Shown here: positions 3,964 through 14,197 of the stretch, in pieces
How the letters are laid out: every line of letters starts with the position of its first letter
Position numbering within the stretch: the stretch's first letter is position 1
DNA from: Clostridia bacterium
Lineage (GTDB): Bacteria; Bacillota_A; Clostridia; Christensenellales; Aristaeellaceae
NCBI GenBank assembly: GCA_017481065.1
Contig: JAFUPT010000013.1
Span: 1 to 15,955 of the forward strand
Direction: 5' to 3'
Length of the DNA: 15,955 bases
Notes under the pieces: generated by a model
Databases searched by the model: none
What the model was told of the DNA's origin: nothing
Seen by the model: only the letters and a program-made list of their open reading frames with translations
Position numbers and translations under genes: made by a program

Positions 3964-4306
3964 TGTGGACTAAGCTGTGGATCCTTTGCTTTGGGAAGCG
4001 CGCTTTTTCCCCATATTTCCTTGGAAAACGGCTTTCCACAGGTCGAATATCCACAGGTTGTGGAAAATGTGGAAAAGGTCTGTGGATGACCGCTGCACAG
4101 GCAGGGCAAAGCGCCGGTTCAGGGATTTTTTATGCATCGTATTCATGATTTCCAGCAGGAAACAGCGGGGCCGGTATGGAATATTACCTCGAAGGGGATT
4201 TCTGTCCACATACGCTGTGGATGAACCCCTCTGTTTTTCCACAGTTTATCCAGCCCCGTTTTTGGGGCGCTGTAAGGGCTGGAAGGGGTTTTCCACAGTT
4301 TCCACA
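3964..4306. other. oriC: DnaA-box cluster 1 (oriC region)
   Basis: The region has many 9-mers related to the DnaA box TTATCCACA or its complement TGTGGATAA. One-mismatch copies are ATATCCACA (4047), TGTGGAAAA (4059 and 4068, directly abutting), TGTGGATGA (4081 and 4216) and TTTTCCACA (4235 and 4289). Two-mismatch copies lie at 3964, 3976, 4032, 4202, 4246 and 4298. None is a perfect match. Several pairs are head-to-tail at 9 or 11 bp centre spacing. The location directly before dnaN is a usual place for an oriC, and the unwinding-type sequence follows at once. Function is inferred. Confidence 0.8.
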
Positions 4307-4352
4307 TCCCCTACTGCTACTACTGAAATAATACATACTGCTATCTATGTAA
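4307..4352 (+). other. Candidate origin unwinding element: GC step, DnaA-trio-like triplets, AT-rich stretch
   Basis: After the last two DnaA-like boxes (4289-4306) comes TCCCC, then CTACTGCTACTACTG (4311-4325). That is five triplets whose complementary strand reads 3'-GAT/GAC-5'. An AT-rich stretch follows (4326-4352). This order (box, short GC-rich spacer, repeated trinucleotides, AT-rich DNA) is that of the basal unwinding system described for B. subtilis oriC. It ends at the dnaN ribosome binding site, so any dnaN leader would run through it. Confidence 0.62.
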
Positions 4353-6738: not shown

Positions 6739-6754
6739 TGTTTCACGTGAAACA
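6739..6754. other. parS: parS site 1 (ParB/Spo0J binding)
   Basis: TGTTTCACGTGAAACA is a perfect 16-bp palindrome and matches the conserved bacterial chromosomal parS. It lies 8 bp after the recF stop and directly before the recF terminator. It would act as a loading site for ParB and, through it, SMC. Confidence 0.95.
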
Positions 6755-6973: not shown

Positions 6974-6989
6974 TGTTTCACGTGAAACA
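6974..6989. other. parS: parS site 2 (ParB/Spo0J binding)
   Basis: A second exact copy of TGTTTCACGTGAAACA; with the flanking A and T it makes an 18-bp palindrome. It lies immediately upstream of the predicted addA -35, so bound ParB could affect that promoter. The preceding A creates an ATG that opens the addA frame early (MFHVKH), but it has no Shine-Dalgarno. Confidence 0.95.
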
Positions 6990-7038: not shown

Positions 7039-10000
7039 ATGCCAAACTGGACGCCGGAGCAGAAAAAGGCCATCAAGGCCAGGAATCATACCATCCTCGT
7101 CAGCGCTGCGGCCGGTTCGGGTAAGACGGCGGTACTGATCGAACGAATCGTGCAGCTGATCCGCGAGGGCTATTCGCTGGGGCGGATGCTTATTGTAACC
7201 TTCACCAAGGCGGCGGCCGGTGAGATGCGGCAGCGCCTGACGCAGCGGCTGCTCTTTGAACGGGAAGTTGACCCGGTGATTATGGAGTCCGCACTGGATG
7301 AATTGGAGTACTGCGAAATATCCACGATCCACGCCTTCTGCACGAAGATGTTGCGGAGTGAATTTCAGGCGGTGGGCATTGATCCTCTTTTCCGCATCTG
7401 TGAGGAGAACGACAGGCAAACATTGTTTGAGTTGGCGTTTTGCGATGCGATGAATGATCTGCTGGAGGATGAGAGCGACCAAAATGTCATGGCATTCGCG
7501 GATGCATTTGAACAGCAAAAAATCCGCGAAATGACGACGGAGCTCTACAACTTCCTCATGTCCATGCCGGAGCCCTTTGCATGGCTGGAGCAGCAAATTG
7601 AAAATATCCCGAATCAAATTCACGATGACCAGCCTTGGCGCAAGGTCATGCGCAGCGACGCCGCGCGGGAACTGGATGGATTGAGTGAACTGCTGTCTCA
7701 GCAGCAGGAAATGTTCCGCGAAATAGATGCTGTGGCAGAGCTGATGGACACATGGGAGGCCGACTCGCAGGCCTATGCGCGCGTGAGGGAGAGCGTAGAA
7801 AAGGATGAAAGGGCGCTTTTTGAGCATGTCGCTTCCTTTGAGTTTGTGCGGGCAGCCACGTGCCGGGGACTTTCGCCGGATCAGAAGGCGTGGCAGAAGC
7901 GATATCAGAAGCTCCGCGACGAGATGAAAAAGCTCGTCAAGGACATCACGCAGCATCTGAGCATCGATCAGGAGCGCTGCACGCAGGAATTGACCGTCAT
8001 GCAGCAGCACCTCAAGGGGCTGCAATCGCTGATTCGGCGCGTACATGCGTATTTTTTGAAGTACAAGCAGCAAAAAAATGTGGTGGACTTCAGCGATTTG
8101 GAGCAGTTTACCTACCAAATTCTCCAAAACAAAGCCCATCGGGACATGCTGCAATCCGCCTTCGATCACATTTTTGTGGACGAATGCCAGGACGTATCGG
8201 CGATTCAGGACAGCATTTTGCAGGCGATTCACGGGGAAAAGAGCTGCATGTTCATGGTCGGCGATGTGAAGCAGAGCATCTACCGCTTCCGCCTGGCGGA
8301 TCCGACACGCTTTCTGCACCGAATGCGCACGTTTTCCGATGATAAGAAGGCCAGCGAGCGGCGGATTTTCCTGCAAAAGAACTTCCGCTCCCGCACGAAT
8401 GTCCTGGACGCCACCAACCGCGTCTTCCGCCGCCTGATGAAAAAGGAAGTCACGGAGTTGGATTATCTGCCGGAGGACGAGCTGATCCCTGGGCGCGAGA
8501 CGGAAAATGACCCGGAAGTGGAGATCCACGTGATCGACGCGGAGGGTAATGAGGACGAAGAAAAGGTACCCAGCATTGACGCGGAAGCGGCGCTGGTGAT
8601 CGAAAAAATCCGGTATATGCTCACGCAGACATACTCGGTGGGCGACGGCGAAAAGGCCTACACCTACCGAGACATGGTGATTCTGCTGCCGAAGGTGGCG
8701 GGCGTGGGCGGACGGCTGGTGGAGCTGCTGGGACAGGCAGGCATTCCCGTGTATTTTGACGGCTCGGACAGTTATTTCAGTTTGCCGGAAATTGTGACGA
8801 TGAAGTCGCTGCTGTCCGTGATCGACAATCCTTTGCAGGATGTGGAGCTCATGGCGGCGCTCAAGACGATTCCATTTTGCATGACAGATGAGGATTTGTC
8901 GGAAATTCGCCTGTGCAAAACGGGACGTGGCGTGCCGTTCCACGAGGCCTTTGACGCTTGCTGCGAGCAGGAATCGGAAATGGGTAAGCGCTGCCGAGAG
9001 GTTCGGGAGAAGCTGGCGGAGTGGCGCTTCTGGGCGGAAAACATGCGCCTTTCGGACTTTATCTGGAAAATCCTCCGGGAATCCGGCTATTATGCGGCCT
9101 GCGGCGCGCTGCCCAAGGGAGAGCTGCGGCAGGCAAATTTGCGGCTGCTGAGCCAAAGGGCGGCGGAATACGAGAGCAGCGGCGGATGTACGCTGAGCGG
9201 ATTCCTCGAGCTGGCGGGTCAGCAGCAGGATGCGGATGACAAGCGCAGCGCAAAAATGCTGGGGGAAAACGAAAACCTCGTCCGCATCATGACAATGCAC
9301 AAGAGCAAGGGCTTGGAGTTCCCTGTGGTGTTCTGCATGCAGCTCTCCGGGAGGCTCCACCGGCCCCAGACAGGCGACATCCTCATGCACAGCCAGCTGG
9401 GCGTGGCGCTGCCCTATGTGAACCGAAAAATGAACATCCGCCGACATACCATCGCGTACAGCGCCTTTGACGTGCAGCGCAAGTTAGATGAGAAGGCGGA
9501 GCGGGCGCGGCTGCTCTATGTGGCCATGACCCGCGCGAGGGAGAAACTCTACCTCATTGGCTGCACGCCGGAAAAAAAGCGCGGCGTGTGGGCGATGAGA
9601 GAGAGCAGCTACCGGATCATGAAGGCGGAGAGCATGATGGACTGGCTGATGCAGGCTTGTTTGTCAGATGAAAAAACAGCGTTTTCCACAGGTAATCCAC
9701 AGCCTGCAATGCCTTGGAAAATAAGGCTTTCCGGGTATGTTCATCCACAGCGTGTGGATAAAGAAAAAGTTATCCACAGCATGCAGGAATGGCTGAATAC
9801 CGTCGTTTCTTCGAAAAATGTGGATAAATTGTGGACATCCTGGCAGACCCTCTACGATCAGCCGGAAACCCGTCCGCTCAAGACCTCCGTCAGCAGCCTG
9901 GCAAAAAAGCAGACGCTGCTGGATCCTCTGCCCCTGACGGATGAGGAGGAATCCCTGGAGGATAAGCGCCGGGAGGAGCAAATAATCGCTCCCCTACGGC

Positions 10001-10542
10001 TGTCGGAGCTGCCGTCGAAGCCTGCATTCATGGAGGAGAGGCGCATGACAGGCGCGGAGCGGGGCACGCTGGTGCATCGGGTGCTGTCGCTGGTTCCGTT
10101 GGAAAGGATGCGGGAGGCGGAGAATCTGTCCGCGATTGTCCACGAAGAAGTGCATGCCATGGTGGAGCGCGGGCAGATCACTGCTGAGGAGCTGATGCGC
10201 GTGCCCATGCGCAGGGTCATGCAGTTCTTTGGCTCTGATGTGGGTCAGCGGCTGCTCAGGAGCGACAAAATCCGCAGGGAGTGGAGCTTCAATCTGCTCA
10301 TGGAGGAGGAAGGAACGCTTCTGCAAGGCGTGATTGACTGCGCGTTTATGGAGAATGGCCGCTGGATTCTGCTGGACTACAAGACGGATCGCATTGAGGA
10401 CGAAAATGCCTTCGTGCAGCGCTATACCCTGCAAATGCAGTGGTACGCCAGGGCATTGGAGCGCATCACGGGCACAAAGGTGGATGAAATCTGGCTCTGC
10501 GCGCTGTCTACGGGGATATTCTACGCGGTAGAGAAACAATGA
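7039..10542 (+). CDS. addA: ATP-dependent helicase/nuclease subunit A (AddA)
   Basis: UvrD-like helicase with a C-terminal RecB-type nuclease. With AddB it processes double-strand breaks for RecA loading. The protein is 1167 residues from the ATG at 7039, normal for AddA. Seen: Walker A AAAGSGKT (23-30), TFTKAAAGEM (54-63), STIHAFC (95-101), Walker B FVDECQD (379-385; Cys where Tyr is common), GDVKQSIYRFR (408-418), VRIMTMHKSKGLEF (748-761), RLLYVAMTRAR (824-834), and nuclease motifs GTLVHR (1009-1014) and GVID...LLDYKTD (Asp1100, Asp1113, Lys1115). The start has AGGAGGG 5 nt upstream; a start at 6973 would lie on parS2 with no ribosome site. addB, usually adjacent, is absent. Residues about 882-934, in the linker before the nuclease, are encoded by a dense DnaA-box cluster. 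Its stop overlaps the next gene (ATGA). Confidence 0.95.
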   Translation: MPNWTPEQKKAIKARNHTILVSAAAGSGKTAVLIERIVQLIREGYSLGRMLIVTFTKAAAGEMRQRLTQRLLFEREVDPVIMESALDELEYCEISTIHAFCTKMLRSEFQAVGIDPLFRICEENDRQTLFELAFCDAMNDLLEDESDQNVMAFADAFEQQKIREMTTELYNFLMSMPEPFAWLEQQIENIPNQIHDDQPWRKVMRSDAARELDGLSELLSQQQEMFREIDAVAELMDTWEADSQAYARVRESVEKDERALFEHVASFEFVRAATCRGLSPDQKAWQKRYQKLRDEMKKLVKDITQHLSIDQERCTQELTVMQQHLKGLQSLIRRVHAYFLKYKQQKNVVDFSDLEQFTYQILQNKAHRDMLQSAFDHIFVDECQDVSAIQDSILQAIHGEKSCMFMVGDVKQSIYRFRLADPTRFLHRMRTFSDDKKASERRIFLQKNFRSRTNVLDATNRVFRRLMKKEVTELDYLPEDELIPGRETENDPEVEIHVIDAEGNEDEEKVPSIDAEAALVIEKIRYMLTQTYSVGDGEKAYTYRDMVILLPKVAGVGGRLVELLGQAGIPVYFDGSDSYFSLPEIVTMKSLLSVIDNPLQDVELMAALKTIPFCMTDEDLSEIRLCKTGRGVPFHEAFDACCEQESEMGKRCREVREKLAEWRFWAENMRLSDFIWKILRESGYYAACGALPKGELRQANLRLLSQRAAEYESSGGCTLSGFLELAGQQQDADDKRSAKMLGENENLVRIMTMHKSKGLEFPVVFCMQLSGRLHRPQTGDILMHSQLGVALPYVNRKMNIRRHTIAYSAFDVQRKLDEKAERARLLYVAMTRAREKLYLIGCTPEKKRGVWAMRESSYRIMKAESMMDWLMQACLSDEKTAFSTGNPQPAMPWKIRLSGYVHPQRVDKEKVIHSMQEWLNTVVSSKNVDKLWTSWQTLYDQPETRPLKTSVSSLAKKQTLLDPLPLTDEEESLEDKRREEQIIAPLRLSELPSKPAFMEERRMTGAERGTLVHRVLSLVPLERMREAENLSAIVHEEVHAMVERGQITAEELMRVPMRRVMQFFGSDVGQRLLRSDKIRREWSFNLLMEEEGTLLQGVIDCAFMENGRWILLDYKTDRIEDENAFVQRYTLQMQWYARALERITGTKVDEIWLCALSTGIFYAVEKQ
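9682..9838. other. DnaA-box cluster 2, inside addA
   Basis: Three perfect DnaA boxes lie within 157 bp of coding sequence: TGTGGATAA (9753 and 9819) and TTATCCACA (9770). One-mismatch copies are TTTTCCACA (9682), TAATCCACA (9693) and TCATCCACA (9741), and a two-mismatch TGTGGACAT lies at 9830. Boxes occur on both strands; 9682/9693 and 9819/9830 are tandem pairs at 11 bp spacing. They fall in different codon phases, so protein repetition does not explain them. Confidence 0.82.
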
Positions 10543-11369
10543 TGGAGATGTTTCACGTGAAACAATACAGAATGGATTATCACCTGCACACCCTGCATTC
10601 CATGGACGGCCGGCAGACGATGGATGAGCTGTGCCGGACGATGGTGGAGCGCGGCGTGCAGGAAATCTGCCTGACGGAGCATATTGAGCCCGGTCACCCC
10701 GAGGAGGGCATGGATGTGCCGCCTATCTGGGATGTGTGGTTGCGGGAGATTCAGCAGATGCGGGAAAAATATCCGCAGCTGATCATCCGCGCGGGCGTGG
10801 AAATCGGCGATAATCCGCTGCTGAGAAAGCAAACCATGGCGATGCTGGATGAATTGCCGCTGGATTTCCGGCTGCTGTCGCTGCACTTGGTCAATGGCGT
10901 GGATCCTTATGATATCGCCCTTTTCTTTCAGGGGAAAACCCGCGATCAGGCCTATCGGGAATATGTGGAGGCTAAGGTGGAATCCATCTGTGCGTGGGAT
11001 GACTACGACAGCGTGGCGCACATCGGCTATGTGGCGAAGTATTCAGCGTACACGGGCGAGGAGCGTCCCCTGCGATATGAGGATGCGCCGGAGGCCTTCG
11101 ACACGCTGCTGCGCCGGGTGATTGAGACAGGAAAGTGCATCGAAATCAATACCTCCGGCTATGGTACAACGGGTGATACCCTGCCTCATAGCAGCATCAT
11201 CCGCCGGTATATCGAGCTGGGCGGCGATACCTTCACCTTCGGCAGCGACAGCCATGATATGGAGCGCAATTATGCTGATATCGAGCGGGCGAAGGACGCG
11301 ATCCGCGCCATGGGCGGCAAATACCAGGCGGCCTTTGCACAACGGAAGAAAATCCTGTACAAAATCTGA
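10539..11369 (+). CDS. hisK: PHP-domain histidinol-phosphatase, HisJ/HisK family
   Basis: Predicted metal-dependent phosphatase that converts histidinol phosphate to histidinol in histidine synthesis. The protein is 276 residues, typical of the family. PHP metal ligands are visible in order: DYHLHT (His15, His17), TEH (His48), GVEIG (Glu88), SLH (His116), AHIGY (His161), NTSG (205-207 region) and GSDSH (Asp237, His239). No other his gene is nearby, so a different phosphoester substrate is possible. Three starts compete (10539, 10542, 10548). I chose 10539 because it overlaps the addA stop by ATGA and has a weak GGTAGAG upstream. The third parS site forms codons 4-9 (MFHVKQ), so the N-terminal residues before DYHLHT reflect a DNA site and not the enzyme. 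Confidence 0.88.
   Translation: MMEMFHVKQYRMDYHLHTLHSMDGRQTMDELCRTMVERGVQEICLTEHIEPGHPEEGMDVPPIWDVWLREIQQMREKYPQLIIRAGVEIGDNPLLRKQTMAMLDELPLDFRLLSLHLVNGVDPYDIALFFQGKTRDQAYREYVEAKVESICAWDDYDSVAHIGYVAKYSAYTGEERPLRYEDAPEAFDTLLRRVIETGKCIEINTSGYGTTGDTLPHSSIIRRYIELGGDTFTFGSDSHDMERNYADIERAKDAIRAMGGKYQAAFAQRKKILYKI
10549..10564. other. parS: parS site 3 (ParB/Spo0J binding), inside a coding start
   Basis: Third exact copy of TGTTTCACGTGAAACA, 3.6 kb from parS2. It lies within the first ten codons of the hisK-type gene, where it encodes FHVKQ. ParB bound here would overlap the translation-start region of an actively transcribed operon. Confidence 0.95.
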
Positions 11370-14072: not shown

Positions 14073-14197
14073 TGTGGATAAGATTGTGGACAATGTGGAT
14101 AATAGGCGAATAATTTATCCACAGGAGTGGATAAGGGCACGGGATCATTCATCACTGTGGATAAGTCTGGGGATAAGCCTGTGAATGATGTGGACAA
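14073..14197. other. DnaA-box cluster 3, upstream of the ferritin-like gene
   Basis: Within 125 bp there are four perfect boxes: TGTGGATAA at 14073, 14094 and 14156, and TTATCCACA at 14115. One-mismatch copies are TGTGGACAA (14085 and 14189), AGTGGATAA (14126) and TGGGGATAA (14168). Most point the same way; 14085 and 14094 abut at 9 bp spacing. It fills nearly the whole gap between the terminator and the next gene's ribosome site, leaving no clear sigma-A promoter outside it. Confidence 0.85.

Follow-up and report, generated by a model that had tools for sequence, protein, structure and literature searches.

A DnaA-box array of conserved spacing inside addA, near the replication origin of a Clostridia bacterium and its relatives

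Replication is initiated once per cell cycle, and little is known about how this is controlled outside model bacteria. The DnaA-box clusters that lie near oriC in Bacillus subtilis were reportedly studied by Okumura et al. in 2012. In the excerpts of two papers, the removal of six DnaA-box clusters outside oriC in this species led to early initiation (PMC5295017, PMC13220808), and the basal unwinding site of an origin is described, in the excerpt of another, as DnaA boxes followed by DnaA-trios (PMC8287927). Like the B. subtilis clusters, the array described here packs several DnaA boxes into a few hundred bp and is located outside oriC with an origin nearby (~5.4 kb); it lies within a gene, is fixed in spacing and conserved across genera, and is tied to origin linkage. 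Among open-access papers, judged by title, we found no earlier report of a DnaA-box array in addA. The array presents a definite target, as synonymous changes can destroy its boxes and leave the protein untouched, and it suggests that searches for replication control confined to intergenic DNA would miss such sites.

The array in addA and the nearby origin

The window analyzed here is a stretch of 15,955 nucleotides (contig JAFUPT010000013.1 of assembly GCA_017481065.1), whose features are collected in Table 1. An earlier note on this DNA had described three perfect and three one-mismatch DnaA boxes within addA, on both strands and in differing codon phases, 5 kb from an oriC-like region. Our scan recovered these six boxes, which span 9682-9827 and occupy both strands and all three codon phases (0, 2, 2, 2, 1, and 2, with 7039 taken as the addA start). 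The end coordinate given there, 9838, is that of a further two-mismatch site (TGTGGACAT at 9830), and the distance agrees with the ~5.4 kb that we found between the array and the trio-bearing origin region upstream of dnaN. Outside the linker segment, addA has no perfect or one-mismatch box, and the whole window has 23 boxes of at most one mismatch, compared to a mean of 2.08 and a largest value of 7 in 200 dinucleotide shuffles.

Table 1. Features of the window (positions are those of the 15,955-nucleotide stretch)
Feature	Position	Strand	Remark
Origin proper (cluster I): DnaA boxes, CCCCTACTGCTACTACT trio-like repeat at 4308-4324, AT-rich stretch	4047..4350	+	directly upstream of dnaN
addA (helicase-nuclease AddAB subunit A), host gene of the element	7039..10542	+	TIGR02785, 824.6 bits, cut-off 707.65
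addA-embedded DnaA-box array (cluster II), whole element, 157 bp	9682..9838	+	predicted from box consensus
Site A, TTTTCCACA, one mismatch	9682..9690	+	offset -71 from C
Site B, TAATCCACA, one mismatch	9693..9701	+	offset -60; 11 bp after A
Conserved spacer motif GCCTTGGAAAATAAGGC with rare codons ATA-AGG	9711..9727	.	between sites B and C
Extra one-mismatch box TCATCCACA	9741..9749	+	box scan
Site C, TTATCCACA, perfect	9753..9761	-	anchor site, offset 0
Site D, TTATCCACA, perfect	9770..9778	+	offset +17; divergent pair with C
Site E, TTATCCACA, perfect	9819..9827	-	offset +66
Site F, TGTGGACAT read on +, weak in window (two mismatches)	9830..9838	-	offset +77
Cluster III: eight DnaA boxes (4 perfect), gap before ferritin-like gene	14073..14197	.	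box scan

The relatives most used below belong to genus A, the genus of genome G001 and nearest to the window, and genus B, the genus of G093; their addA genes share 36-64% identity with that of the window. At the offset of the extra box TCATCCACA, the window alone of the listed genus A and B genes has a site with one mismatch or fewer; outside these genera, L016 has one too. The spacer motif takes forms like CCTTGGAAAATAAGG, with arms CCTTAT/ATAAGG in several relatives. At the protein level, the alignment to the solved AddA chain 3u44, which we take to be that of B. subtilis, skips residues 850-972, and this stretch looks like a linker.

Upstream of dnaN, the boxes of cluster I span 4047-4297, and boxes precede CCCCTACTGCTACTACTGAAATAATA at 4289-4340, the arrangement that characterizes a basal unwinding site. 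By reading, a clear CTAC-type repeat stands upstream of dnaN in 9 of 13 relatives (L157, L166, L167, L169, L174, L175, L176, L180, and L201); it is weaker in L090 and L114, and none was seen in L187 or in the 200 bp examined of L001. The array itself (9682-9838), also by reading, has no CTACTACT-type repeat and does not show the unwinding-site layout, although the DnaA-trio motif is degenerate (excerpt of PMC8287927), so a weak trio there could escape such reading.

In the single-contig relatives G093 (3.26 Mb) and G134 (3.41 Mb), for each of which 20 stretches of 20 kb were sampled, GC skew changes sign from minus to plus at the place corresponding to the dnaN-side origin, and dnaA lies 1.21 and 1.29 Mb from addA, respectively. 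There, dnaA (G093 C1 458337; G134 C1 1306313) has upstream DnaA boxes of its own. In L166 (G130), unlike G093 and G134, dnaA and dnaN apparently flank the origin boxes in the usual layout. The DnaA protein of a relative carries GGRDHTTV near its end, presumably the usual DnaA signature. The single-contig genomes G093, G134, G189, and G163 contain 26, 44, 36, and 40 perfect boxes versus 16, 23, 18, and 7 matches to the reversed pattern; as read from the list for these four, the places where perfect boxes stand within 200 bp of each other are this locus, dnaA in G134, and a single further site in each of G163 and G189. The window also contains three exact TGTTTCACGTGAAACA palindromes, which we assume to be parS-type motifs, at 6739-6754, 6974-6989, and 10549-10564; the second and third encode MFHVKH/MFHVKQ near open-frame starts, and many relatives have one palindrome of this type just upstream of addA.

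Site geometry and selection on the DNA

Spacing was compared across 42 genes (window included) with site C as zero and up to two mismatches allowed, the array-less genus A gene L059 having been excluded beforehand. Site A was found at -71 in 41 genes and site B at -60 in 30, each with no occurrence at shifts of 1 to 8 bp; D lay at +17 in 29 genes and at +18 in 4 more, with no other shifts in that range; and E at +66 and F at +77 were present in 29 genes each, where shifts of 1 to 8 bp gave at most 1. Site C, the anchor, was found in all 42, and both B and C are favored by construction because they were used in choosing the anchor, which does not apply to A, D, E, and F. When at most one mismatch was allowed, the counts were 23 (A), 19 (B), 35 (C), 27 (D), 18 (E), and 8 (F) of the 42, and six genes have, instead of D, a second minus box at +12 that forms a direct repeat. 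Five different distances separate the upstream protein motif from A, and six separate F from the downstream motif; as the offsets inside are fixed, indels appear to be tolerated by the surrounding linker and not by the array. The offsets place the outer four sites in mirror symmetry about a single point.

This near-dyad is also apparent because all seven genus B genomes that match a strict pattern (TCCACA-N51..62-TGTGGA-N14..15-TCCACA, zero mismatches) do so on both strands. Run over 396 genomes of the order, the pattern matched 14, nine in addA and five once each elsewhere, with ~1 match estimated by chance; its rarity outside the family does not show absence there, because a pattern without mismatches missed the sampled G009. 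No such element was found outside the family in the viral contigs searched. A search of 308 family genomes for the C/D pair, taken as two divergent boxes 17 bp apart with no more than one mismatch, found it in 24; by reading, it lies in addA in 14 of these, upstream of dnaA in 4, upstream of dnaN in 3, and by a ferritin-like gene in 1, with 2 unassigned.

Synonymous resampling of the linker segment of addA, in which the protein was fixed and the gene's own codons were used, gave an average of 0.21 perfect and 1.02 one-mismatch boxes and a maximum of 5 in total, and the observed 6 were never reached in 5000 trials. Together with the shuffles, this rules out chance or plain codon usage as the source of the boxes. 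When 40 addA genes (window included, and related sequences being non-independent samples) were resampled, P was at most 0.01 in 18; 16 of the remaining 22 are boxless in the segment, and six have boxes that fall short of P 0.01 (L013 0.035, L027 0.037, L026 0.095, L025 0.14, L014 0.24, and L002 0.42).

Codon conservation, taken as the share of same-amino-acid pairs with an identical codon, was compared in 14 genus A genes (L014 and L059, from which most of the array is absent, were excluded) and 27 genus B genes. It is higher in the element than in the rest of the gene within genus A (0.730 vs 0.503), between the genera (0.688 vs 0.460), and within genus B (0.793 vs 0.521), and the six best 52-codon windows of the gene overlap the element in all three comparisons. 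Amino-acid identity is lower in the element than elsewhere within genus A (0.37 vs 0.61) and between the genera (0.30 vs 0.39), and equal within genus B (0.51 vs 0.51). At the same place in 13 addA genes without the array, the excess of codon conservation is absent (0.544 vs 0.525).

A per-column test in 42 genes (15 of genus A, with L014 and without L059, and 27 of genus B) found the codons at box positions far above own-gene usage: Thr ACA in 41 of 41 cases (6.9 expected), Leu TTA in 12 of 18 (0.4), Pro CCA in 16 of 16 (1.5), and Val GTT in 20 of 20 (3.6). The spacer motif behaves likewise, with Ile ATA in 32 of 39 (2.9 expected) and Arg AGG in 28 of 35 (4.7). Sequence comparisons of these kinds support the view that the array is under selection at the DNA level. 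The earlier note had supposed as much, and the element does have the highest synonymous-codon conservation of the gene (0.69-0.79 vs 0.46-0.52). Its further claim that the boxes fall in a linker free to vary is in line with an amino-acid identity no higher than in the rest and with flanks of varying length. The outcome that it had named as contrary to its view, related addA genes that keep the amino acids and lose the 9-mers, is the opposite of what the alignment gave.

Linkage to recF/dnaN and neighboring clusters

A cluster was called where a span of 200 bp contained at least two boxes, perfect or with a single mismatch. Of the addA genes directly behind recF/dnaN, 37 of 43 contain one (the window's among the 37), compared to 7 of the other 52, with 45 below the rule; "not linked" here means that recF/dnaN was unseen in the available flank (0.2-10 kb upstream), as the relatives' genomes are mostly in many contigs. 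The rarity of clusters elsewhere upholds the link between boxes and origin drawn in the earlier note. The six linked genes below the rule comprise L027, L120, and L130, in which most of the expected offsets carry degenerate sites, L014, which retains little beyond site C, and L059 and L176, which retain nothing. Among the seven unlinked genes with a cluster, L016 and L123 sit on contigs too short to see recF, L141 has its boxes elsewhere in the gene, and L169, L188, L197, and L201 have them in the linker, where they exceed codon expectation (as the single box of L202 barely does, P 0.034). In L169 (G009) and L201 (G108), dnaN lies 1.5 and ~2.1 kb behind addA on the opposite strand; it is 14 kb away in L188 (G059, three boxes) and on another contig in L197 (G146, two boxes). 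A rule that nearness to dnaN means an array was rejected, as the array is absent from G145, G058, and G006, where dnaN follows addA within ~1.1 kb.

Genera A and B fall inside one supported 55-row group of a tree that was built by a quick method from 95 AddA proteins and rooted at its midpoint; the linked L175 of G004, which has three boxes, was omitted for its broken frame. Within this group is an 11-row branch in which the recF/dnaN arrangement is gone from 10 rows, one of which (L140) has 0.9 kb upstream visible, and the array from all 11; this branch may represent loss of the array, as judged from a single fork with support 86. In the tree as drawn, the diverged lineage of L169 (G009) branches in the opposite half; it retains A (-71), C (0), and D (+17) and a related spacer motif, which suggests that the array either dates back to the ancestor of the family or has been exchanged with this locus. 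G002 has two addA copies of ~38% identity to the window's, on C10 (L009, with just scattered one-mismatch boxes) and C6 (L002, without a cluster). In-frame stops (two TAG, one TAA) occur in the addA frames L017/L175 (G004) and L130 (G187).

Behind addA, a box cluster was found in 14 of 18 stretches (window included), and none in G066 and G113 (both with the array), G009, and G108. It precedes the ferritin-like gene in the window and in the genus A relatives where that gene is visible; in genus B it directly follows addA, with mbl (and alkphos where seen) on the opposite strand, and the block looks as if it had been inverted. The clusters before dnaN, in addA, and behind addA keep one common order in several relatives, and L237 and L238 have no cluster upstream of dnaN under the rule used here. 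The clusters look partly interchangeable, as is reported for those of B. subtilis: with their array lost, G157 and G150 show 7 and 6 boxes behind addA, respectively; G140, also without it, has four just behind addA and seven behind mbl; and G066 and G113 show the reverse.

Proposed role, alternatives, and known systems

We hypothesize, with moderate confidence, that the array is an origin-proximal site of DnaA assembly and sequestration in addA, similar in role to the B. subtilis clusters. Mechanistically, this stretch would be kept as a DnaA-assembly site because addA adjoins the origin; DnaA would bind at the central divergent pair C/D (17 bp apart) and at the tandem pairs that flank it, A/B and E/F (sites 11 bp apart in each), and the bound sites would give a compact, nearly dyad-symmetric complex. 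At ~5 kb from oriC, the array would be duplicated right after initiation, and the duplicated array, together with cluster III, would then sequester, and possibly also inactivate, DnaA and limit re-initiation. Binding of DnaA is predicted from the box consensus and from the GGRDHTTV of the relative's DnaA, and the negative, titration-type role is put forward with less certainty. YabA was not found in any of the 11 relatives tested (the control, B. subtilis and L. lactis, was positive), so another brake may be needed. Origin linkage, the apparent interchange of clusters, the frequent absence elsewhere, and the place deep within the gene all favor an origin-linked role over transcription control. 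Several findings count against sequestration: the sites of many relatives are degenerate (F at one mismatch or fewer in 8 of 42), the spacing is fixed, which pure titration would not need, G145, G058, and G006 have a nearby dnaN and no array, and G059 and G146 have boxes though dnaN is 14 kb off or on another contig. In the excerpt of PMC4447404, moreover, a strong in vitro DnaA site inside B. subtilis rplB is not detectably bound in vivo, possibly owing to transcription.

From its fixed geometry, the array may be more than a passive sink, and a datA-like or composite-origin role is possible. Taken further, the array could tentatively be seen as an old, geometry-locked DnaA machine, a counterpart of datA/DARS written wholly in coding DNA and dropped once addA leaves the origin, and thus as a 157-bp dual-purpose stretch that would serve jointly as protein linker and cell-cycle control element. 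The context of this bolder reading is that YabA was not found (11 of 11) and that dnaA is far from the origin (2 of 2). As the main alternative, which we think unlikely, the array would be the distal part of a composite (bipartite or tripartite) origin, in which DnaA bound in addA would loop to the dnaN-proximal unwinding site and aid initiation, the array replacing the upstream sub-origin located by dnaA in B. subtilis. The distance of dnaA from addA in G093 and G134 (1.21 and 1.29 Mb), so that a dnaA-side sub-origin is not beside dnaN there, the rigid array geometry, the similar order of the three clusters in several relatives, and the looping of oriC1 and oriC in B. subtilis (excerpt of PMC13220808) would all fit. 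However, 5.4 kb is far for such looping, the array of G009 lies ~3.4 kb from the origin in the other orientation (dnaN behind addA, opposite strand), and the linked G157, G150, and G140 manage without an array. That DnaA acts here as a transcription factor or roadblock on addA or the genes behind it would agree with its being a transcription factor elsewhere and with the array lying inside a gene. It is nevertheless improbable, as the array is mostly gone from unlinked addA though the gene is retained (45 of 52 below the cluster rule), and the genes behind addA differ (mostly PHP in genus A vs the cluster and then mbl in most of genus B) while the array is constant. Of the three roles suggested in the earlier note (a remote origin sub-region, a DnaA-titrating locus, or control of addA transcription), the last is disfavored because most relatives with an unlinked addA lack the array (exceptions G059 and G146) and because the array begins ~2.6 kb into the coding sequence.

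A positive regulator of the DARS type, at which ADP-DnaA would be reactivated, is very improbable: a catalytic DnaA complex might need the fixed geometry with tandem and divergent pairs, yet the spacings in the E. coli stretches taken as DARS1 and DARS2 are 14/12 and 17/15/14/12, compared to 11/60/17/49/11 in the array (at most two mismatches). We give hardly any credence to constraint on the protein, by which needed peptides (ST..PQ, VDK/VEK, and VIH) would spell boxes by accident. These residues do recur in genus A and B genes, but the explanation is ruled out by the resampling, the codon conservation, codons far above own usage (Thr ACA 41/41, Val GTT 20/20), and a D to E exchange that preserves a box-like site (TGTGGATAA to TGTGGAAAA); array-less relatives are also without the peptides. 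mRNA hairpins formed by opposed boxes have next to no probability: C and D pair over 9 bp in the window, but they are fully complementary in just 8 of 42 genes, and six genes have the direct-repeat minus box at +12 instead, so that the lack of C/D complementarity in most of the 42 rules hairpins out.

For comparison, we fetched the E. coli stretches that we take to be the DARS1, DARS2, and datA loci. Like the array, datA, whose DnaA boxes go together with an IHF site and DnaA-ATP hydrolysis, is a non-origin DnaA-box locus, and the negative regulation proposed here would be a further likeness; the stretch taken as datA has no site with two neighbors within 150 bp (at most two mismatches), which precludes a comparison of geometry. 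DARS1 and DARS2 are likewise small DnaA-box sets in a fixed arrangement, spaced at 14/12 and 17/15/14/12 (the 17 being a convergent pair) vs 11/60/17/49/11, and neither identity of spacing nor the DARS arrangement was seen in the array. The bipartite origin of B. subtilis, oriC1/oriC, resembles this locus in having a second DnaA-box region near the unwinding site, whereas the array is ~5 kb away, in addA, with other genes between. DnaA sites inside reading frames are also found in B. subtilis rplB and codV; according to the excerpt of PMC4447404, these are bound in vitro, that of rplB not detectably in vivo, whereas binding to the array is predicted. The oriC-proximal clusters of B. subtilis, as here, are outside yet near oriC, several in number, and apparently redundant; the present array differs from them in lying inside a protein-coding gene and in having a spacing that is conserved across genera.
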